A DNA stretch of 64,000 bases from Microbacteriaceae bacterium (GTDB lineage: Bacteria; Actinomycetota; Actinomycetes; Actinomycetales; Microbacteriaceae): contig JAODME010000010.1 of the NCBI GenBank assembly GCA_025465095.1, forward strand, positions 1 through 64,000, read 5' to 3'. The notes below the pieces were generated by a model. That model was not told the DNA's origin. It searched no databases and saw only the letters and a program-made list of their open reading frames with translations. Both the position numbers and the translations under genes were made by a program. This document shows positions 6,218 to 46,503 of the stretch, in pieces; position 1 is the stretch's first letter, and the number at the start of each line of letters is the position of its first letter.

Positions 6218-7045
6218 GTGCAGACGTTCCTCCCGTACGCCGACTTCGTCGAGAGCGCACGCTCGCTCGACCAGGCGCGTCTCGGCAAGCAGCGCGTCGA
6301 GGCGCTGCAGGTGCTGCGTGCGATCGTGCTGCCCGCATACGGCTGGCAGAGCCACCCGGCGATGCAGATGTGGCGCGGCTATGTGCCCGCGCTCACCCGC
6401 TATGCGCTCGACACCGTCGACACCTGGACCTCGCTCGGCCGTGCGGACACGACACGTCCGCTGATCGCCGAATTCGCGCCGGAGGTCGACGGCACCACCA
6501 TCGCCTCTCTGCCGCGGCCGACGTGGCTGGGAAACGAGGAGCTGCACCTGAGCCACCGGTCGAATCTCGTGCGCAAGGACCCGGAATTCTACCGGCCGCT
6601 GTTTCCCGGTGTGCCAGGCGATTTGCCGTATCTCTGGCCGGGACCGGACGCCGACGCCCCGCTGTCATCCGCCCCCTCCGGGCCACCGCTCTGGATCATC
6701 CGGGCCGGCTCGGCCGGCGAGCTGGAGGCGTGGGCGGGCACGGGCTCCGTCATGCTCGCGGAGACGTCGCCGCGAGGCCGACGCACGCCGGCCTGGCGGC
6801 GGCAGCTCGACCGTTTCGCGGAACTCAGGGTCGGCACGGCCATCGCAGCGCTCGTCGGCAACGGAGCGGTGCTTCTCGGCGGGACCATCGAGGGGCGGGT
6901 CACCTCGTACCGTGGGGAGGAAGATGAGACCGGCCTGAAACGGGAGGTGGGCTTCGACCGCGAGATGGCACGTGCCGAGTTCCCCTATCCGGCGTTGCTT
7001 CAGGATCCGCGGTCGGTGTTCGAGGTGCCGGGGCCCGGTTGGTAG
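6218..7045 (+). CDS. MSMEG_6728-family protein, pyrimidine-dimer DNA glycosylase-like
   Basis: The N-terminal ~150 residues match the actinobacterial MSMEG_6728 family, related to T4 endonuclease V-type pyrimidine-dimer glycosylases. Visible hallmarks are MQTFLPYADF, the DQARLGKQRVEALQ helix, WQSHPAMQMWRGY, and HRSNLVRKDPEFYRP near residue 115. The C-terminal half is a less conserved extension. GTG 6218 was chosen because a purine-rich CGGGAGAGA lies 8 nt upstream and because the family begins with this sequence; the in-frame stretch back to 6098 overlaps the helicase gene. It is probably in one unit with the helicase. Glycosylase activity is inferred from family membership only. Confidence 0.82.
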   Translation: MQTFLPYADFVESARSLDQARLGKQRVEALQVLRAIVLPAYGWQSHPAMQMWRGYVPALTRYALDTVDTWTSLGRADTTRPLIAEFAPEVDGTTIASLPRPTWLGNEELHLSHRSNLVRKDPEFYRPLFPGVPGDLPYLWPGPDADAPLSSAPSGPPLWIIRAGSAGELEAWAGTGSVMLAETSPRGRRTPAWRRQLDRFAELRVGTAIAALVGNGAVLLGGTIEGRVTSYRGEEDETGLKREVGFDREMARAEFPYPALLQDPRSVFEVPGPGW

Positions 7046-7053
7046 AGAGCACG

Positions 7054-10000
7054 TCAGCGGAAGTCGCGAGAGTTCGTCTTCGCGGTGAGCGGCAGCAGCT
7101 CGAAGCGGTCGGCGAGCAGATTCACCACACCCTCTTTTGAGCGCTCGAGGATGCCGCGAACGATCATCGCGGGTGCCTCTCGCGTGATCCGGCGGTAGCG
7201 GTTCCACACGCCGACGCTGCAGATCACATTCACCAGACCGGTCTCGTCCTCGAGGTTGACGAAGGTGATCCCGCTCGCCGTCGCCGGACGTTGCCGGTGG
7301 GTGACGATGCCGGCCACCTCGATCCGTCGCCCGGATTCTGCCTCTTTCAACTGGGCGGATGACAGCACTCCCCGTTTCTCAAGCGAACCCCGCACGTGCC
7401 GGACAGGGTGGTCGTCGGGTGAGATCCCGGTCGCCCAGAGATCGGAGACGAGCGTCTCGGATGCGGTGGGCAGGTGGAACAGGGGAGGCTGCACCGAGAC
7501 ATAACTGCTTGGAAGGTATTCGGCCCGGTTCTGCGCGGCGTCGCCCGCGGCCCAGAGCGCCTCCCGCTGTGACATGCCGAACACCTCGAACGCACCCGCC
7601 GCGGCGAGGGCTTCGAGTTCGACGGTCTCGAGTCCCGTCCGGTGCACGAGGTCGGCCATGTCGACGTAGTCGCCGCGGCTGGTGCGCTCCTCGACGATGC
7701 GTTTCGCGAGCACCGCGCCGATTCCGCGCACTTCGGCGAGGCCGAGCCGCACCATGAAGGCACCGTCGCGCCGATGGTCGTCGCAGTCGAAGTGGGCGGT
7801 GCGGTCGAACTCTGGCACGGGGGGTTGCTCGAAGTGAAGGCATTGGGGGGTGCCGGTAACTGGTTTCTTCGCCGAACCTTCGGCGCCGCCATCCAGCGGT
7901 TCCAGCAGGGCATCCGCCCCCGACCTCAAGATGTCGGGACGGCGCACCTGAACACCGTGTCTACGGGCATCCGCCACGAGGGTCGCAGGAGAGTAGAAGC
8001 CCATCGGCTGGGCGCGCAGCAGCGCGGCGAGGAACGCCGCCGGGTAGTGCAGGCGCAGCCACGCACTCGCGTAGACGAGCAGCCCGAAGCTCAGGCTGTG
8101 ACTCTCGGCGAACCCAAAGTTCGCGAAGGCCTGAATCTTGCCGTAGATGTCGTCGGCGACGTCCCCGATGATGCCGTTGTCTGCCATCCCCGCGTAGAGC
8201 TTGGTCTTCAGCGACTCGATGCGCTCGATGCCGCGCTTGGAGCCCATCGCGCGGCGCAGCAGGTCGGCGTCCTCGCCGGTGCATCCGCCGACCGCCATCG
8301 CGACCTGCATGAGCTGCTCCTGAAAGACAGGAACCCCGAGGGTGCGCTCGAGCGGTTCGACGAGCTTCGGGTGCAGGTAGGTGATCGGCTCCTCGCCGAG
8401 CTTTCGCCGGACGAACGGATGCACCGCCCCACCCTGGATCGGACCCGGCCGCACCATCGCGATCTGTACCACCAGATCGTAGAACCGGCGCGGCTGCAAT
8501 CGGGGGAGGAGCCCCATCTGAGCGCGGCTCTCCACTTGGAACACCCCGACGGAGTCGGCACGGCAAAGCTGATCGTAGACGCCGGCTTCCTCGCGTGGGA
8601 GGGTTTCGAGGGTCCACTTCTCGCCGAGGCTCTCCTCAACCATGTCGAAGGTGTACTGCAGTGCCGCGAGCATACCGAGCCCCAGCAGATCGAACTTGAC
8701 CAGTCCCATCCAGGCGCAATCGTCCTTGTCCCACTGCAGCACGGTGCGGTTCTCCATGCGCGCGTGCTCGATCGGCACCACCTCGCCGACCGGACGATCG
8801 GTGAGCACCATCCCGCCGGAGTGGATACCGAGGTGCCTGGGGAATTTCAGCACCTGGTGGGCGAGGTCGACGACAGGCGCCGGGATGTCGTGGTCGGCAC
8901 TCGAGACGACGGCACCCCAGCGTTCCACCTGCTTGGACCAGGCATCCTGCTGGCCGGGGGAGTGTCCGAGCGCCTTCGCCATGTCGCGCACCGCGAACTT
9001 CGGACGGTAGGTGATCACGTTGGCGACCTGCGCGGCGTTCTGCCTGCCGTACTTGCCGTAGACATACTGGATGACCTCCTCCCTCCGGTCGGAGTCGAAG
9101 TCGACGTCGATGTCGGGCTCCTCGTCGCGCATGCTCGAGAGGAACCGCTCGAACGGCAGCTTGTAGTAGATCGAGTCGACGGCGGTGATGCCGAGCAGGA
9201 AGCAGACGGCGGAGTTCGCGGCGGATCCACGCCCTTGGCAGAGGATGCCGCGGCTCTTCGCGAACTTCACGATGTCATAGACGATCAGGAAGTAGCCGGG
9301 AAAGTCCTTGAGTTCGATGACCTCGAGTTCGCGTTCTATCCGCTGCCGATCGGCATCACTGAGCCCCGGGTACTTCACGGCTGCGCCGTCCCAGACGAGC
9401 TTTCGCAGCCAACTGATGGGCGTGTGACCCGCCGGCACCTTCTGCTTCGGAAGCCCGGGCCGCGCTCTCTTCAACGGGAACGCGAGGTCGTCGGCGAGCT
9501 CGACGGTGCGCTCGACGACGCCGGGGTAGCGGGCGAACCGCGCGGCCATCTCCGCTCCCGATCGCAGGTGCGCTGCCCCGGATGTCGGCAGCCAGCCGTC
9601 CATCTCATCGAGGCTGCGGCGGGCACGCACCGCCGACAGTGCACTTTGCAGCCGGTGCTGCTCCGGGGTCGCATAGTGCACGTTTCCCGTCGCGATCGCC
9701 CTCAGGCCGAGCCGCCCGGCGATGCCGTAGAGCGCGTCATTGTGCTCGGTGTCGAGCGGGTTGCCGTGGTCGGTGAGCTCGACGACGACATTGTCGGCTC
9801 CGAAGAGCTCGACGAGGCGGAACACCTCAGCTTCGGCGGCATCCGCCCCGGATCTTTCTGCACCACCGCTTTCGGCGCCGCCCATGAGTGCCTGGCGCAC
9901 CCGGCCCTTGCGGCATCCGGTCAACACGAGCCAGTGCCCGCCCGCCCTGCGGCCGAGTTCATCGAGGTCGTAGACCGGGCGGCCCTTCTCGCCGCCGGCG

Positions 10001-10554
10001 AGCTGCCCGGCGGTGATCGCGGCGGCGAGGCGGTGGTAGCCCTCCTCCCGTCGGGCGAGAATGACGAGATGGCTGCCCTCCGGCTCGGCGACACCCAGTT
10101 GCGGTGAACTGAGATTGAGGGACAGCTCGGCACCGAACACGGTCGCGATATCGGGAAAGGCCTCGGCGGCCTCGGCCAGGCGGACGATGCCGTACAGTCC
10201 GTCGTGGTCGGTGAGGCCGAGGGCGTGAAGGCCGAGCCGTTGGGCTTCCTCGAGCAACTCCTCCGGGGAGGACGCACCGTCGAGGAAGCTGAAATTCGAG
10301 TGAACGTGCAACTCCGCGTAGGGCACGGCATCGGTGGCCGCCGCCTGGTGTGCCGTCCGGTTCGGAATCTGGTTCGCGGCCCGATGCCCGGCCTGATTCG
10401 ACCCGGTAGCGTTCGGGATGTACCGCTGCCGCTTGGCCGACCAGGCTGGACTGTCGCCGCCGTCCGCTCCGACCGGAGGCGCACCTGGCCGCCGTGAGTC
10501 AGAGAGCGCACGTTCGAAGTCGGACCACGGAATCGGCGGGTTGCTCCAACCCAC
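7054..10554 (-). CDS. dnaE2: Error-prone DNA polymerase III alpha subunit DnaE2 (ImuC)
   Basis: This is the translesion polymerase of the SOS mutasome, 1166 aa. An N-terminal PHP domain starts at about residue 80 with HVHSNFSFLDG and LTDHDG. The palm carries the catalytic aspartates in PDIDVDFD at about residues 478-485. The thumb/fingers region follows, then helix-hairpin-helix elements near residue 930 (GIGAVLAKRI) and an OB fold near 1070 (VAGIVTHRQRPATASG). No exonuclease-type epsilon partner is encoded nearby. GTG 10554 is served by AAGGAGG 10 nt upstream, which lies inside the preceding small ORF. DnaE2 works with ImuB, which brings it to the beta clamp, and ImuA. Convergent with the glycosylase-like gene, with stops 8 bp apart. 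Confidence 0.97.
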   Translation of the reverse strand: MGWSNPPIPWSDFERALSDSRRPGAPPVGADGGDSPAWSAKRQRYIPNATGSNQAGHRAANQIPNRTAHQAAATDAVPYAELHVHSNFSFLDGASSPEELLEEAQRLGLHALGLTDHDGLYGIVRLAEAAEAFPDIATVFGAELSLNLSSPQLGVAEPEGSHLVILARREEGYHRLAAAITAGQLAGGEKGRPVYDLDELGRRAGGHWLVLTGCRKGRVRQALMGGAESGGAERSGADAAEAEVFRLVELFGADNVVVELTDHGNPLDTEHNDALYGIAGRLGLRAIATGNVHYATPEQHRLQSALSAVRARRSLDEMDGWLPTSGAAHLRSGAEMAARFARYPGVVERTVELADDLAFPLKRARPGLPKQKVPAGHTPISWLRKLVWDGAAVKYPGLSDADRQRIERELEVIELKDFPGYFLIVYDIVKFAKSRGILCQGRGSAANSAVCFLLGITAVDSIYYKLPFERFLSSMRDEEPDIDVDFDSDRREEVIQYVYGKYGRQNAAQVANVITYRPKFAVRDMAKALGHSPGQQDAWSKQVERWGAVVSSADHDIPAPVVDLAHQVLKFPRHLGIHSGGMVLTDRPVGEVVPIEHARMENRTVLQWDKDDCAWMGLVKFDLLGLGMLAALQYTFDMVEESLGEKWTLETLPREEAGVYDQLCRADSVGVFQVESRAQMGLLPRLQPRRFYDLVVQIAMVRPGPIQGGAVHPFVRRKLGEEPITYLHPKLVEPLERTLGVPVFQEQLMQVAMAVGGCTGEDADLLRRAMGSKRGIERIESLKTKLYAGMADNGIIGDVADDIYGKIQAFANFGFAESHSLSFGLLVYASAWLRLHYPAAFLAALLRAQPMGFYSPATLVADARRHGVQVRRPDILRSGADALLEPLDGGAEGSAKKPVTGTPQCLHFEQPPVPEFDRTAHFDCDDHRRDGAFMVRLGLAEVRGIGAVLAKRIVEERTSRGDYVDMADLVHRTGLETVELEALAAAGAFEVFGMSQREALWAAGDAAQNRAEYLPSSYVSVQPPLFHLPTASETLVSDLWATGISPDDHPVRHVRGSLEKRGVLSSAQLKEAESGRRIEVAGIVTHRQRPATASGITFVNLEDETGLVNVICSVGVWNRYRRITREAPAMIVRGILERSKEGVVNLLADRFELLPLTAKTNSRDFR

Positions 10555-10556
10555 TA

Positions 10557-10712
10557 CTACTCACCCTCCTTGAGGTGTCGGGTGTCGGGCCGGTCGCCGG
10601 GTGCGTTGGAACCATAGTTGTGGCGGTGATCCGAGCTTGCCGACAGCCATAACCCTGTTTTCGACGCCGTCCCGAGCAGCCCGAGCGGGATGAGGACAGC
10701 CCGCTCAGTCAT
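10557..10712 (-). CDS. 51-aa ORF between imuB and dnaE2 (possible mutasome microprotein)
   Basis: The ATG (10710-10712) lies 8 bp inside the end of imuB, and the TAG (10557-10559) ends 2 bp before the dnaE2 GTG. The ORF therefore exactly fills the gap between two coupled genes. The product begins MTERAVLIPLGLLGTAS and has a hydrophobic N-terminal third, then a polar, His/Asn/Asp-rich tail ending HLKEGE. The last codons contain the AAGGAGG ribosome-binding site of dnaE2, so translating this ORF could set dnaE2 initiation. No family is recognised. It may be a real microprotein or a leader-type coupling ORF; the sequence does not decide between these. Confidence 0.55.
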   Translation of the reverse strand: MTERAVLIPLGLLGTASKTGLWLSASSDHRHNYGSNAPGDRPDTRHLKEGE

Positions 10713-12303
10713 AGCGCGCCTCCGCCCACCAGCTGTCGCCCTCGTTGACGAGCAGCCAGGCGAGTCCGGCATCATCCACCACCTGAAACCGGTTGCTCCG
10801 GATGCCGCGGCCGGCGGCGCTCGACCACCAGCGCTCGTCGATCGGCCACGGCCCGGCCCAGGCCGAGAGCGGGCGGAACGTCCCTCCTGTCGAGAACGCG
10901 TTCGGAATGCCGGAGAGGGCGCCGCGCGTGTCGACCGTGACGACCCGGCCATCGGCGGAGACGACCGTGACCGGATGCCGCGTCTCGAATACCGTGGACG
11001 GCGCAGGCGTCGGCAAGCTGCCGGGCCAGGGCTGTTTCCGGTCGAGTGCCGTCGCCGGTCGATCGCCCCACGCGACGAGGTTCTGCCGATCGGCGAGGGT
11101 GCGGCCGCCTCCGACGACAGCCGTGAGCACTCCGCCGTGGCCGAGCATGCTCTGCACCCGGGAGAGCGCATGGTGAATGCGCTCCTCGGCGGCCGTGCCC
11201 CACAGCCCTTGCTCGTGGTTGCCGATGTCGTCGACACTCTCGGGGATGACACGCACGTAGCAGATCGGTGAACTCAGCCCGGTCTCTGAAGCGCTGCCCT
11301 GCAACTGCCAGCGAATCCGGTCGATCACGTCGGCAGCGGTGAAGGATCTCGGATGCAGCCAGGTGCGCTCGGAGGTCTCCCCGGCATCCGAGTCGATCTC
11401 GACCCTGATGCTCGTGCAGACCAGCTGCGCCGCCGCGATCCCCTCTATAAAGCGATCGGCGGATGCCCGGAAGCCGAACGCGACCTGGTCGATCCTGTCG
11501 AGAGGCGGCTCGAACGAGACCACGCTGTCGAGCTCGCGCGGCGGCGTGCGCGGGACGATACGGCGCGAGTCGAGGCCGCCGGCGAGGGCGTGCAGGTGCG
11601 CGCCGTCCTGCCCGAATCGCGCCGTGACGTCCTGTGCCTCGAGCGCGGCGAACTCACCGAGCGTGCGGATGCCAAGCCGTTGCAGCAGGGTCGCGAGCTG
11701 GGGCGCGCCGAGCAGTCGCACGGGCAGGGGAGCGAGGAACTCCGCCGAACCACCCTCCGGCACGATCCGAATGCGCGGTCTCGTGGCGCTGCGGGCGGCG
11801 TGCTCGGCGGTGAACGGCCCGTCGGCGACGCCGACTCGAGCGTCGGTGATCCCGAGTGAATCGAGGGTGTCCAGCAGCCACAGGGCCGCCTCCTCGTCGC
11901 TGCCGTAGAAGCGGCTCGGCCCCCGGGAACGGATGGCGCACATCCCGGGTCTCAGCAGTTGCGCCCCCGACATGACCTCCTCGATGGCCGCGACCACCGG
12001 CTCGAACGAGCGGATGTCGAGATCGGCCTCGTAGGGGAAGATGAGCAGATCAGGACATCGGGACTGGGCCTCGCGCACACGGAGCCCGCGCCTCACCCCC
12101 TCGCGGCGGGCGGCAGGCGAACAGGCGAACACCTCGCCCTTCTCGATCACGGCGACGAGGGGTTCTGGAGCACCGGGGTCCAGAGCACCGGGGTCCAGAG
12201 CACCGGCCTCCGCGGTGAGACCCCTGGCGCGGAGAACCGCGGTGATGGGCCAGTCCGGGCACCAGAACACTATGGTGCGGGTGACATTCGTGCGCTGGGT
12301 CAT
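10705..12303 (-). CDS. imuB: ImuB, Y-family polymerase-like adaptor (catalytically inactive)
   Basis: 532 aa, similar to Y-family DNA polymerases but of the ImuB class. At the site of the first catalytic Asp, in polymerases near DMDAFF, this protein reads FWCPDWPI (about residues 12-19). Where SIDE is expected near residue 110 it reads SGAQLLRPGMCAI. Both metal-binding acidic pairs are therefore missing, as known for ImuB, which serves as the hub linking DnaE2, ImuA and the beta clamp. A helix-hairpin-helix-like segment follows (LATLLQRLGIRTLGEFAAL). ATG 12303 overlaps the imuA stop by 4 bp (ATGA), so translation is coupled. Frame upstream of this ATG is imuA antiphase. Confidence 0.93.
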   Translation of the reverse strand: MTQRTNVTRTIVFWCPDWPITAVLRARGLTAEAGALDPGALDPGAPEPLVAVIEKGEVFACSPAARREGVRRGLRVREAQSRCPDLLIFPYEADLDIRSFEPVVAAIEEVMSGAQLLRPGMCAIRSRGPSRFYGSDEEAALWLLDTLDSLGITDARVGVADGPFTAEHAARSATRPRIRIVPEGGSAEFLAPLPVRLLGAPQLATLLQRLGIRTLGEFAALEAQDVTARFGQDGAHLHALAGGLDSRRIVPRTPPRELDSVVSFEPPLDRIDQVAFGFRASADRFIEGIAAAQLVCTSIRVEIDSDAGETSERTWLHPRSFTAADVIDRIRWQLQGSASETGLSSPICYVRVIPESVDDIGNHEQGLWGTAAEERIHHALSRVQSMLGHGGVLTAVVGGGRTLADRQNLVAWGDRPATALDRKQPWPGSLPTPAPSTVFETRHPVTVVSADGRVVTVDTRGALSGIPNAFSTGGTFRPLSAWAGPWPIDERWWSSAAGRGIRSNRFQVVDDAGLAWLLVNEGDSWWAEARYD

Positions 12304-13091
12304 CCGGCCAGCTCCCTCGTCTGCTCGTCGGCGAAGCGCGGGGCGCGGGAGGACCGCTCGGCGCGGCTGAACTGCTCGGCGCGATCGGGCAGCCACAGGC
12401 GAGCGCTGCGCGGGCGGGCCCCGGCTCTCGTGGTGACGGTGACCGTGGTCTCTCGCGCGGCGAGGCGCCCGTGGCCCTCCCCGATGCCGCTCCAGGTGCT
12501 GTGCGAGATACTCAGCATGGCGTCGGTCTGCGGCCAGGATCCGAGCACGATGAGGGTCGATCCGCGCTGCCGCAGCCTGGCAGCCAAACGCGCGACGCTC
12601 GAATCGCTCGCCTGCCGCGGCGGGCGTGTCACCACAACTGTCAGTACGTCGGCGATCGCCGCGGTGACCGCGAGCCACTGGTCGCCCGGATGCGGAACGA
12701 GCACAAGCCGCTCGAGGTCGATGCCGTAGTGTGCGGCAGCCTCGACGCCGAACTCCGGAACCCCGATGACGCCGCACCATGATCCGGCGGCGGACGGGCC
12801 GGCGAGCAGCGCCATGAGCAGGGTGACCGAGCGTTCGACCGAGTAGGCCGCCCCCTGTTTCAAACCGCCACCGGGAAGCAGCGAGGCGATCGCCGGATGC
12901 GTCGGCAGACTACGGGTGTCGAGCTTCGTCCCCTGCATCTGGCGGATGCGCGCCTGCAGGTCGCGCACCGTCTCGGCCGGCGCGCGTACCGGAGCCGACG
13001 CCGGCGCCGATCGCGGCGCAGACTCGTACTCGCCCTCTTCGAAGGGGTCATCGAGAACAACAGAAGCAGGCACCCCTATATCGTCGAACAT
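12300..13091 (-). CDS. imuA: ImuA, RecA-like component of the SOS mutasome
   Basis: First gene of the imuA-imuB-dnaE2 operon. The recognisable part starts with ARIRQMQGTKLDTRSLPTHP and then GGGLKQGAAYSV, followed by a degenerate RecA/SulA-like core. ImuA interacts with ImuB and RecA during damage-induced mutagenesis. The start is unsettled. ATG 13091 sits 7 nt after a -10-like CATACT and would give a leaderless 263-aa protein. GTG 13073 sits 6 nt after GACGAT of an overlapping TTGACA promoter. ATG 13121 lies upstream of both promoters and is unlikely despite giving the longest frame. The N-terminal ~55 residues (acidic, Pro/Ala-rich) are not conserved, so they do not help the choice. Confidence 0.87.
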   Translation of the reverse strand: MFDDIGVPASVVLDDPFEEGEYESAPRSAPASAPVRAPAETVRDLQARIRQMQGTKLDTRSLPTHPAIASLLPGGGLKQGAAYSVERSVTLLMALLAGPSAAGSWCGVIGVPEFGVEAAAHYGIDLERLVLVPHPGDQWLAVTAAIADVLTVVVTRPPRQASDSSVARLAARLRQRGSTLIVLGSWPQTDAMLSISHSTWSGIGEGHGRLAARETTVTVTTRAGARPRSARLWLPDRAEQFSRAERSSRAPRFADEQTRELAG

Positions 13092-13099
13092 AGGTTCGA
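13084..13099 (-). promoter_or_regulatory. LexA SOS box of the imu operon
   Basis: TCGAACATAGGTTCGA is a perfect TCGAAC-N4-GTTCGA palindrome, the actinobacterial LexA operator. On the minus strand it lies between a perfect TTGACA (13103-13108) and GACGAT (13080-13085), with a 17-nt spacer. It also covers the end of the alternative -10 CATACT (13099-13104). LexA bound here would block either promoter of imuA. Confidence 0.92.
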
Positions 13100-13121
13100 G
13101 TATGTCAATCGGCACCGACAT
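13099..13121 (-). promoter_or_regulatory. PafBC-type (RecA-independent) damage promoter motif
   Basis: Read on the minus strand, ATGTCGGTG, eight bases, then CATACT. The mycobacterial RecA-independent DNA-damage promoter is TTGTCRGTG-N8-TANNNT, so the upstream element matches 8 of 9 and the spacing is exact. The -10 has C for the first T. There is no -35 at the matching distance, as expected for PafBC-activated promoters. pafB and pafC are encoded at 44-46 kb of this window. Binding is inferred. Confidence 0.55.
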
Positions 13122-13200: not shown

Positions 13201-13473
13201 ATGTGCCGGAACATCCACCCCCTCCACAATTTCGAACCCGCCGCCACCGACGACGAGGTACACGCCGCCGCACTGCAATTCGTGCGAAAGATCAGCGGAT
13301 CGACGAAGCCGTCGAAGGCCAACACCGAAGCCTTCGACAGAGCCGTCGAGGAGATCGCGCACATCTCGAGGCACCTGCTCGAGGACCTCGTGACCACCGC
13401 ACCTCCGAAAAGCCGAGAAACCGAGGCCGAGAAGGCCAAGGCACGCTCAGCGAAACGGTTCGCCGCGGCCTGA
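13201..13473 (+). CDS. DUF2277-family protein
   Basis: A 90-aa protein starting MCRNIHPLHNFEP, the signature N-terminus of DUF2277, followed by LQFVRKISGSTKPSKANTEA and a C-terminal lysine/alanine-rich helix. The N-terminal CRNI cysteine is conserved in the family. Function is unknown. The ATG is 6 nt behind TACCCT (13189-13194), so the mRNA may be leaderless. It is divergent from the imu operon across a 110-bp region. Confidence 0.88.
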   Translation: MCRNIHPLHNFEPAATDDEVHAAALQFVRKISGSTKPSKANTEAFDRAVEEIAHISRHLLEDLVTTAPPKSRETEAEKAKARSAKRFAAA

Positions 13474-44465: not shown

Positions 44466-45533
44466 ATGATCGTGCCAGATGCGGTGCCTCCCACCAGGCG
44501 CGATCGTGCCCACGACGCGCAGCGGGTGCCCGTCGAGGAGCGACTGTTCAGCCTGGTGCTCGCGCTTCTCGCCACGGAGAGCGGCCTGACCAAGCACGAG
44601 ATCTTGTCGACGGTGCAGGGCTACCGCCAGCGCTACTCGCGGGCGGGCGACAACGCCAACCTGGAGCGCCAGTTCGAGCGCGACAAGGACGACATCCGCG
44701 ATCTGGGCGTGCCGCTGGAGACGGTCGAGATGCCGGAGGACGCGGGAAGCAACCACAACGCACGCTACCGGATACCCCGCGGAAGCTACGAGTTGCCGGC
44801 CGACATCACCTTCTCGGCCGAGGAGACGACGCTACTCGGGCTCGCCGCGATGGTGTGGCGCGAGGGATCCCTTTCCGCCGAGTCCCGCCGGGCCCTGCTG
44901 AAGCTGCGATCGCTCGGCGGAGTGACCGAAGACCCTGTGCTGGGGTACACGACGACGGCACGGGCGCGCGATGCCGCGTTCGAGCCGCTCCGCACCGCGC
45001 TCGAGAAGCATCAAATCGTCCGATTCGATTATCTCAAACCGGGGGAGGCCGACGCCCGGGCGAGAACTGTCGTGCCGCTCGCGCTCGTCCAACATCAGGG
45101 CCGCTGGCATCTCAGCGCGGAGGAGGAGGGCACGGGCGCCCGCAAGACGTTCCTGCTGCGCCGCATCGTCAGCAAGGTCAGCTCCACGGGAAGAACCTTC
45201 ACCCCGCGCCCCGGCGACCACACGGCCGACGCGCTAGGTGAGTTGGAGCAGATCTGGGCGTCCCAGACCGCGGTCGTCGAGGCAGTGCCCGAGTCGGATG
45301 CCGCAACGCGCCTGCTGAAGCGTCGCGGCACCGTTCCCACGAACACAGGGGCCCTCGAACTCCACTACGCAGACGTGAACATCGTCGCCGACGAGCTCGC
45401 CGCATACGGGCCGGAGGTTCTCGTGCTCGCCCCGCCGGAGCTTCGCGAGGCCGTCCGGTCCCGACTGGAACGCACCGCGGATGACCACGCCGACGCATCC
45501 GGCGACGCCGATCAAGGGCCCGACCATGGTTAG
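44466..45533 (+). CDS. pafB: PafB, WYL-domain transcriptional activator
   Basis: 355 aa. An N-terminal winged helix (RLFSLVLALLATESGLTKHEIL) is followed by the WYL domain (about residues 165-260, with RWHLSAEE in place of the canonical W-Y-L) and a C-terminal WCX extension. PafB and PafC form a heterodimer that activates RecA-independent DNA-damage genes, probably after binding single-stranded DNA. It overlaps pafC by 8 bp. Despite the name (proteasome accessory factor), this activity does not need the proteasome. Confidence 0.93.
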   Translation: MIVPDAVPPTRRDRAHDAQRVPVEERLFSLVLALLATESGLTKHEILSTVQGYRQRYSRAGDNANLERQFERDKDDIRDLGVPLETVEMPEDAGSNHNARYRIPRGSYELPADITFSAEETTLLGLAAMVWREGSLSAESRRALLKLRSLGGVTEDPVLGYTTTARARDAAFEPLRTALEKHQIVRFDYLKPGEADARARTVVPLALVQHQGRWHLSAEEEGTGARKTFLLRRIVSKVSSTGRTFTPRPGDHTADALGELEQIWASQTAVVEAVPESDAATRLLKRRGTVPTNTGALELHYADVNIVADELAAYGPEVLVLAPPELREAVRSRLERTADDHADASGDADQGPDHG

Positions 45534-46503
45534 ACAGGTGCCCGCCCAGCAGGCGACCGACAAATTGGCTTTCCTGCTCTCGCTCGTTCCGTGGCTCATC
45601 GACAGGGCCGAGGTCACCGTGACCGAGGCGGCGGAGCATTTCGGCGTGCCGGAGCAGCAGATCCGGGACGCGGTGATGCTCATCTCGGTCTCCGGAATTC
45701 CGGGCGAGACGAGCCAGTACCAGCACGGCGACCTCTTCGACATCGCCTGGGACAGGTTCGAGGAGCACGGCGAGATCGTTCTCACCCACCTCGTCGCGAT
45801 CGACGAATCACCGCGCTTCTCCGGGCGCGAGGCCGCGGCGCTGATCGCCGGACTTCAGTATCTGTCGGCCCTCCCGGAGAACGCCGACCGGGGCGCGATC
45901 GACTCGCTGATGGCGAAACTCGCGCGCGGGGCATCCGCGAGCCCCAGCCAGCTCGGCGTCGAGGCCTCCGAATCGGATGCCACGCTCGCGGTGATTCGCA
46001 CGGCCGTCGCTGCGGGGGTGCAGGTCGAGTTCCACTACGTCGATTCGCGGGGCGAACACGAGCACCGTCGGGTAGACCCGCTGCGGATCGAATCGGTCGA
46101 CGCCGACTGGTACCTGCGCGGCTGGGACCACGTGCGCGAGGCAGTGCGTACCTTCCGCCTCGACCGGATCTCGTCCCTCGGTGCCACGACCCGGCCAATC
46201 AACCATCACGCTGGCAGCGTTCAGCTTCCGGACGAGCTTTTCGAGGGGTCGGCGGACGACTTCGTCGTGACGATCGACGTCGCGCCGTCCGCACTGCCCC
46301 TCATCGCGGACTACATTCCCCACGGCGCCGGCAGTTCCGACGTCGACGGTCGGTCGCGGACCACGATCCGGGTCTCCCACTACCACGGACTCAAGCGACT
46401 CGTCGCGAGCCTGCCGGGGGTCGTCACCGTCGTCGCGCCGCCCGACGCCCGTCGAGCTGTCGCCGAATGGGCCGGCGCCGGAGCCGCACGCTATCGCTCC
46501 TGA
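45526..46503 (+). CDS. pafC: PafC, WYL-domain transcriptional activator
   Basis: 325 aa. The N-terminal helix-turn-helix (VTVTEAAEHFGVPEQQIRDAV) and the WYL motif DWYLRGWDHVREAVRTF, which matches the family better than PafB does, are visible. Starts 8 bp inside pafB; AAGGG is 7 nt upstream of the ATG. With PafB it activates damage promoters of the type TTGTCRGTG-N8-TANNNT; a near match stands before imuA in this window. Confidence 0.94.
   Translation: MVRQVPAQQATDKLAFLLSLVPWLIDRAEVTVTEAAEHFGVPEQQIRDAVMLISVSGIPGETSQYQHGDLFDIAWDRFEEHGEIVLTHLVAIDESPRFSGREAAALIAGLQYLSALPENADRGAIDSLMAKLARGASASPSQLGVEASESDATLAVIRTAVAAGVQVEFHYVDSRGEHEHRRVDPLRIESVDADWYLRGWDHVREAVRTFRLDRISSLGATTRPINHHAGSVQLPDELFEGSADDFVVTIDVAPSALPLIADYIPHGAGSSDVDGRSRTTIRVSHYHGLKRLVASLPGVVTVVAPPDARRAVAEWAGAGAARYRS

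Follow-up and report, generated by a model that had tools for sequence, protein, structure and literature searches.

The locus lies in a 64-kb window, the whole stretch of DNA analyzed here, within the 2.45-Mb genome of a Microbacteriaceae bacterium, and it carries the mutasome genes imuA', imuB-like and dnaE2 on one strand (Table 1). The imuA' product scores 187.5 bits against the NCBIfam model NF058630 (cut-off 65), and the longest ATG-started version of its frame begins at 13121. The ATG of the imuB-like gene overlaps the imuA' stop codon (ATGA), and a Shine-Dalgarno-like AAGGAGG is found just 5′ of the dnaE2 start. PafB and PafC, which had been proposed to be encoded in the same window, are confirmed there by WYL and WCX domains in both proteins and by an additional HTH_PafC domain in PafC. 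A lexA gene is present in the same genome. Divergent from imuA', a DUF2277 gene occupies window positions 13201-13470 on the plus strand; a promoter-like TACCCT stands 6 nt before its ATG, and this gene is possibly leaderless as well.

Table 1. Genes and predicted control elements of the locus (window positions)
Feature	Positions	Strand	Remarks
dnaE2, error-prone DNA polymerase	7054..10554	-	NF004225
imuB-like Y-family polymerase gene	10705..12303	-	IMS domain; tested as 10705-12315
imuA'	12300..13091	-	NF058630 (NCBIfam ImuA')
GTG, predicted leaderless start of SOS-driven transcript	13071..13073	-	6 nt past GACGAT
SOS promoter -10, GACGAT	13080..13085	-	N17 from TTGACA; overlaps LexA box
LexA (SOS) box, perfect palindrome TCGAACN4GTTCGA	13084..13099	.	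12/12 fixed bases
ATG inside LexA box, predicted leaderless start of PafBC-driven transcript	13089..13091	-	
PafBC-type -10, CATACT	13099..13104	-	last base = first of LexA box
SOS promoter -35, TTGACA	13103..13108	-	last two bases common with PafBC-type -10
PafBC-type element ATGTCGGTG ("-26" motif)	13113..13121	-	N8 to CATACT
pafB	44466..45533	+	tested as 44472-45533; in-frame ATG at 44466
pafC	45526..46503	+	

Within about 50 bases 5′ of imuA'-imuB-dnaE2, a LexA box and a PafBC-type signature are combined and interleaved. The first-pass annotation had described a perfect SOS box, a TTGACA-N17-GACGAT promoter threading through it, and an 8/9 match to the PafBC promoter with exact spacing. 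The box was found again with all of its fixed bases, and the promoter was located at 13108-13103 and 13085-13080. The sequence, place and exact N8 spacing of the PafBC-type match also stand, but the "8/9" wording omits the fit of the -10 hexamer, in which CATACT agrees with TANNNT at two of three fixed bases. The published consensus, tTGTCRgtg-8nt-TannnT, comes from mycobacteria (PMC5656591), and for M. tuberculosis the motif is given as TGTCGG, TGTCAG or TGTCAC-N10-TA-N3-T (PMC8151990). Against the consensus, the TGTCRG core is present, the 8-nt spacing to the -10 is exact, and A at -11 and T at -7 are kept. The C at -12 is off consensus, and it also belongs to TTGACA.

The two motifs differ in how far they stand out from the rest of the genome. 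The perfect LexA box occurs at 3 places in 2.45 Mb, that of imuA' included, and allowing up to 2 mismatches raises the number to 380, compared to 111 for a reversed control. Between window positions 7000 and 13200, the imuA' box is the sole LexA box with at least 10/12 fixed bases, and the imuA' site is the sole PafBC-type site. A genome scan for the PafBC consensus, proposed earlier as a check, did not single out the imuA' site. At up to 2 mismatches it returned 132 sites (reversed control, 67), with one perfect and six one-mismatch sites listed; imuA' falls in the two-mismatch class, so that 132 sites are as good or better. A scoring matrix was also built on 30 family recA sites, one of which (L157) was mislocated yet included. 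By this matrix the imuA' site scores 8.3, compared to 14.9-30.9 for the other 29 recA sites; its rank within the 64-kb window, both strands counted, is 6th. Neither ranking, by published consensus or by recA-derived matrix, singled it out in the genome or the window. By itself, the PafBC-type match at imuA' is no better than chance; the claim rests on comparison within the family.

Searches for imuA' gave matches in 6 of 6 genomes of the genus, 43 of 60 of the family and 108 of 246 of the class, and 60 loci in named genomes. Many of the named relatives are titled Microbacteriaceae or are members of that family. Six rows were excluded as non-family by title (five Arthrobacter and one Propionibacteriaceae), and L107 and L118 were kept despite titles at phylum level only. 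The resulting 113 family rows were reduced to 101 by dropping L227, in which the box was not located, and by removing 11 near-identical rows. The score used to choose the box of each row also gave credit for an upstream TTGAC and for a start codon lying one base off the counted position; TTGAC is exact in 62 of the 101 promoters, a conservation that leans on this choice. Row L081 is aligned on a second, upstream box, which leaves a TGTCGG beside its other box uncounted, and some rows, such as L216 and L221, are possibly aligned on a secondary box. In Lacisediminihabitans changchengi G11-30, the same imuA' promoter region is found on two scaffolds (L116 and L117).

Both SOS elements are widely conserved: the LexA box retains 11 or 12 of its 12 fixed bases in 92/101 family promoters, and the -10 reads GANNNT in 93/101. 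TGTCRG occurs at the identical position in 40/101, compared to at most 2 at any other scanned position in the 50 nt upstream. The rows stem from searches with this protein as the query, and 17 of the 60 genomes searched in the family lacked a match, so 40/101 is not an unbiased frequency; and since the 40 rows were chosen by TGTCRG, their core is invariant by construction. Outside the core, the first base is A more often than G and G more often than T or C, position 8 is variable, and positions 9 and 10 favour G. The family's recA P1 sites (29 sites, all non-coding) show the same base preferences. No TGTCRG was seen in the 50 nt upstream in 17 located promoters outside the family.

A at -11 of the PafBC-type -10 is present in 40/40 rows with TGTCRG compared to 22/61 without it (Fisher p 1.6e-12, kinship ignored), but as this A is the last base of TTGACA, its conservation is not independent proof. 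Likewise, the frame between the equivalents of 13091 and 13073 is open from ATG or GTG in 40/40 rows with TGTCRG and 36/61 without (Fisher p 5e-7, kinship ignored). On a tree of ImuA' proteins, the TGTCRG label needs 13 changes, of which 4 are forced by well-supported branches. An independent-pairs test on these 4 contrasts gave averages of 2.1 in the expected direction for A(-11) and 1.6 for the open frame, with 0 opposite for each and no difference in the remainder; neither is significant, and with 4 contrasts this phylogeny-aware test is underpowered.

A strict pattern, TGTC(GG/AG/AC)-N10-(T/C)A-N3-T within 150 nt, is found in place in 37 of the 101 rows, elsewhere in 11 and not at all in 53, four of which combine TGTCGG in place with a GA-type -10. 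Controls gave 4/101 on the antisense strand and 0/88 farther upstream. Of the 11 displaced sites, nine have TA and two CA, and five lie in Microbacterium-like rows at -30 to -43; in L085, the PafBC-type site is shifted by one base. Together with the 92 LexA boxes and the 40 elements in place, these displaced sites support the earlier proposal of dual control of the mutasome. Among the 40 rows, 35 have C at -12, 4 have G and one, L101, in which TTGAC is lost, has T. Similarly, L084 (AGTCGG) has no TTGAC and carries T at -12 (TAGAAT). Among TTGAC-degraded rows, L101 and L084 thus have TA at the PafBC -10, and Microcella rows have GA or CA. The C at -12 may represent a compromise with the overlapping -35 TTGACA.

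The recA promoters provide a local standard for PafBC sites. In all 45 family genomes searched, recA was found above the cut-off, and 30 loci (L154-L183) were compared. The P1 (PafBC) site was recognized in 29 of these, and the thirtieth, in L157, was located in another scan. The start of the recA LexA box lies 83-89 nt upstream of the start of the P1 site in 29/30 loci; the DNA between them differs although this distance is kept. In the 29 sites, with L157 set aside, the first base is A in 22, and position 8 is T in 16, A in 8, C in 4 and G in 1. Family recA sites thus read ATGTCRG, and the first-letter "mismatch" at imuA' is the local norm. All 29 have T at -12, but a consensus containing this T was used to select them as best matches.

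A further conserved 9-mer, GACACGCCG, is found upstream of the LexA box within 80 nt in 35/101 imuA' promoters (28 at -35/-36) and in 20/30 recA promoters at -17 to -23. Near a LexA-like box in 30 family genomes, it gave 21 matches in 19 genomes, with 0 for the reversed control; by coordinates, 19 are at recA and 2 at imuA'. In this genome it is not enriched genome-wide (48 vs 40), and the exact 9-mer is absent from the imuA' promoter. It stands 14-15 nt upstream of the PafBC-type element in many imuA' rows. The reading of CGACA...TGTCG as an inverted repeat forming one regulator site was dropped, as GACACGCCG and the element are about 100 nt apart in recA.

Actinobacterial leaderless promoters consist of a -10, then 6-7 nt, then ATG or GTG. 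In the family, ATG or GTG stands 6 nt after the SOS -10 in 87/101 rows, with another start codon close by in 12 of these, and ATG 13091 lies 7 nt after the PafBC -10, the same distance as at dnaX. By eye, no AGGAGG-like sequence precedes the candidate imuA' starts at the usual spacing. On these spacings, imuA' probably has a leaderless start at GTG 13073, which would move to ATG 13091 under PafBC-driven transcription. This agrees with the earlier suggestion that the start is near 13091 or 13073 and not at the longest frame: the family start spacing fits 13073, and 13091 fits the PafBC -10. Stops between the equivalents of 13091 and 13073 are found in 15/61 rows without TGTCRG. The spacing is that of other actinobacterial leaderless promoters, but imuA' differs in having two nested predicted starts six codons apart.

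The pattern TGTCRG-N10-YANNNT-N6/7-RTG has 12 matches in this genome compared to 3 for the reversed control. Its -12 was widened to Y and its spacing to 6-7 with the imuA' site known; the presence of imuA' among the matches is therefore by design, but the content of the other genes is not. Eight of the 12 matches are at gene starts, and seven of these belong to replication or repair genes: a UvrD-like helicase gene, uvrB, a SprT-like gene, a holB-like gene (DNA pol III delta'-like), dnaX, polA and imuA'. The eighth is an alpha/beta hydrolase gene. Identities were assigned first by eye and then with Pfam on eight proteins, those of seven gene-start matches and of recQ, which has a near-match, TGGTCAGTG-N8-TACAGT-N6-ATG. 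Among the eight gene-start matches, C at -12 occurs in imuA' only, and the other three CA-type matches do not appear to be at gene starts. Doubtful matches include L264, with no Pfam family, L270, the C-terminal part of an ABC ATPase, and L259 and L261, with frames of 36 and 12 codons. The UvrD-like, uvrB, SprT-like, holB-like, dnaX, polA and recQ genes (L260, L262, L263, L265, L266, L269 and L004) are candidate leaderless PafBC targets.

Motifs, spacing, conservation and genome context, all observed in the DNA, suggest that two nested promoters, SOS-released and PafBC-boosted, with LexA blocking both, drive imuA'-imuB-dnaE2; we put the probability of this reading at roughly two in three. Both promoters would be of the sigma-A type on the minus strand. 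The first (P-SOS), TTGACA-N17-GACGAT, would be blocked by LexA at the box between and over its elements, and cleavage of LexA after damage would release a leaderless mRNA from GTG 13073. The second (P-Paf), ATGTCGGTG-N8-CATACT, would be used by RNA polymerase with the help of ssDNA-activated PafBC. Transcription from it would begin on ATG 13091 or immediately beside it, a second leaderless start that would give a protein 6 residues longer. The LexA box covers about -8 to +8 of P-Paf, so LexA should also block this promoter, and PafBC would then boost a derepressed mutasome promoter rather than bypass SOS. PafBC control of imuA' itself is well supported by the comparisons above, while binding by LexA and PafBC, the activity and start sites of the promoters, the operon structure and the gating are inferred from sequence.

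A more speculative extension, which we hold tentatively, is a coincidence gate. As LexA would sit on the P-Paf start site, full mutasome expression would require that LexA be removed and also that PafBC be activated by ssDNA; the two promoters would yield leaderless mRNAs encoding ImuA' with different N-termini. At recA, where the sites are separated, an either/or switch would be retained, and relocation of the PafBC site may have recreated the gate on several occasions within the family. Conversely, both switches may be real but act as independent OR inputs, a variant of the nested model that is compatible with its first half. In favour of this variant, mycobacterial LexA and PafBC pathways are described as partly redundant in the response to UV and mitomycin C (PMC10421592); against it, the LexA box would cover the P-Paf start region, and we regard the variant as rather doubtful.

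It is unlikely that the promoter responds to SOS only, with LexA and TTGACA/GACGAT in control and the PafBC-like element a decayed or unused relic. The C at -12, the weak recA-matrix score, the 53 promoters lacking a strict site and the underpowered phylogeny-aware test are all consistent with a relic, and in M. tuberculosis treated with mitomycin C, induction of imuA', imuB and dnaE2 is RecA-dependent (PMC8151990). Against a relic, TGTCRG holds one fixed position in 40 divergent promoters, some of which keep A(-11) although TTGAC is degraded, as in Microcella (TTGCGA or TTGCCA) and Planctomonas (with TAACCT). The TAGAAT of L084 and the 11 rows with a PafBC-type site at other positions argue in the same direction.

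The element could also be conserved as the true start of a longer ImuA' (Met-Ser-Val..., MSVPIDI) rather than as a regulator site. Its first-base order of A, G and T resembles that of start codons, the frame is open in 40/40 TGTCRG rows, and L106, L107, L109, L112, L114 and L121 still have an ATG in frame at the equivalent of 13121 although TGTCRG has diverged; in L107 the diverged motif is TGTCAC, an accepted M. tuberculosis variant (PMC8151990). Yet recA P1 sites, upstream of recA, have the same first-base pattern. The second base of codon 3 varies (T 30, C 9, A 1) and the third hardly does (G 38, or 40/46 with the six diverged rows added), which is the reverse of coding constraint. Moreover, L092 and L077 have CTG, TGTCGG is out of register with the imuA' frame in L085 and in L061, the latter having no -10 to match, and 13121 is preceded by no AGGAGG-like sequence at the usual spacing, while dnaE2 has one. 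With stops before the conserved start in the 15 rows without the element mentioned above, a start at 13121 is unlikely, and translation from there as the reason for conservation is largely rejected and highly improbable.

With the nested promoters as the preferred reading, the sequence signature of induced mutagenesis under joint SOS and PafBC control extends past mycobacteria to the family of this genome. The contrasting predictions of gate and fail-safe would separate the timing of repair (recA) from that of mutation (imuA'-imuB-dnaE2). By-products of the analysis are a list of candidate PafBC targets for this genome and a correction of the likely imuA' start.

PafB touches the -26 motif and PafC touches domain 4 of sigma-A, and ssDNA activates the complex (PMC11804915). 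In mycobacterial recA, P1 is LexA-independent and requires PafBC, and P2 is a LexA promoter (PMC5656591). Mycobacterial imuA'-imuB/dnaE2 are controlled by both LexA and PafBC, as stated in PMC10421592 citing Adefisayo et al. 2021, and dnaE2 in biofilms is described as mostly RecA-dependent (PMC12702967); like the RecA dependence after mitomycin C, this speaks against a large share for PafBC. Dual LexA/PafBC control of the mutasome is thus known in principle from mycobacteria. For Microbacteriaceae, we found no report on PafBC in the open-licence literature.

A related arrangement appears in a second family of the same class (f10), which we guess is mycobacteria-like. Twenty-one f10 genomes matched the imuA' search, and 12 stretches were fetched; in 8 of these, TGTCGG stands immediately 5′ of the LexA box at the imuA' relative, and 4 have no such element. 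At the -10 spacing, five of the eight have TTTACT and three have TANNNT, and in L253, one of the latter, the last T is the first base of the LexA box, as in this genome.

The promoter described here thus has recognizable counterparts. The same two switches operate recA P1/P2, where the LexA box lies upstream of the PafBC site; at imuA' the two overlap. Mycobacterial imuA'-imuB/dnaE2 comprise the same genes under the same two regulators as those proposed here. In contrast to the mycobacterial system, the three genes lie together in this genome with a single control region, in which the SOS -35 shares bases with the PafBC -10. Compared with the open-licence literature searched, what is new is the nesting of the two promoters, the shifting position of the PafBC site and the occlusion by LexA that is predicted from it.
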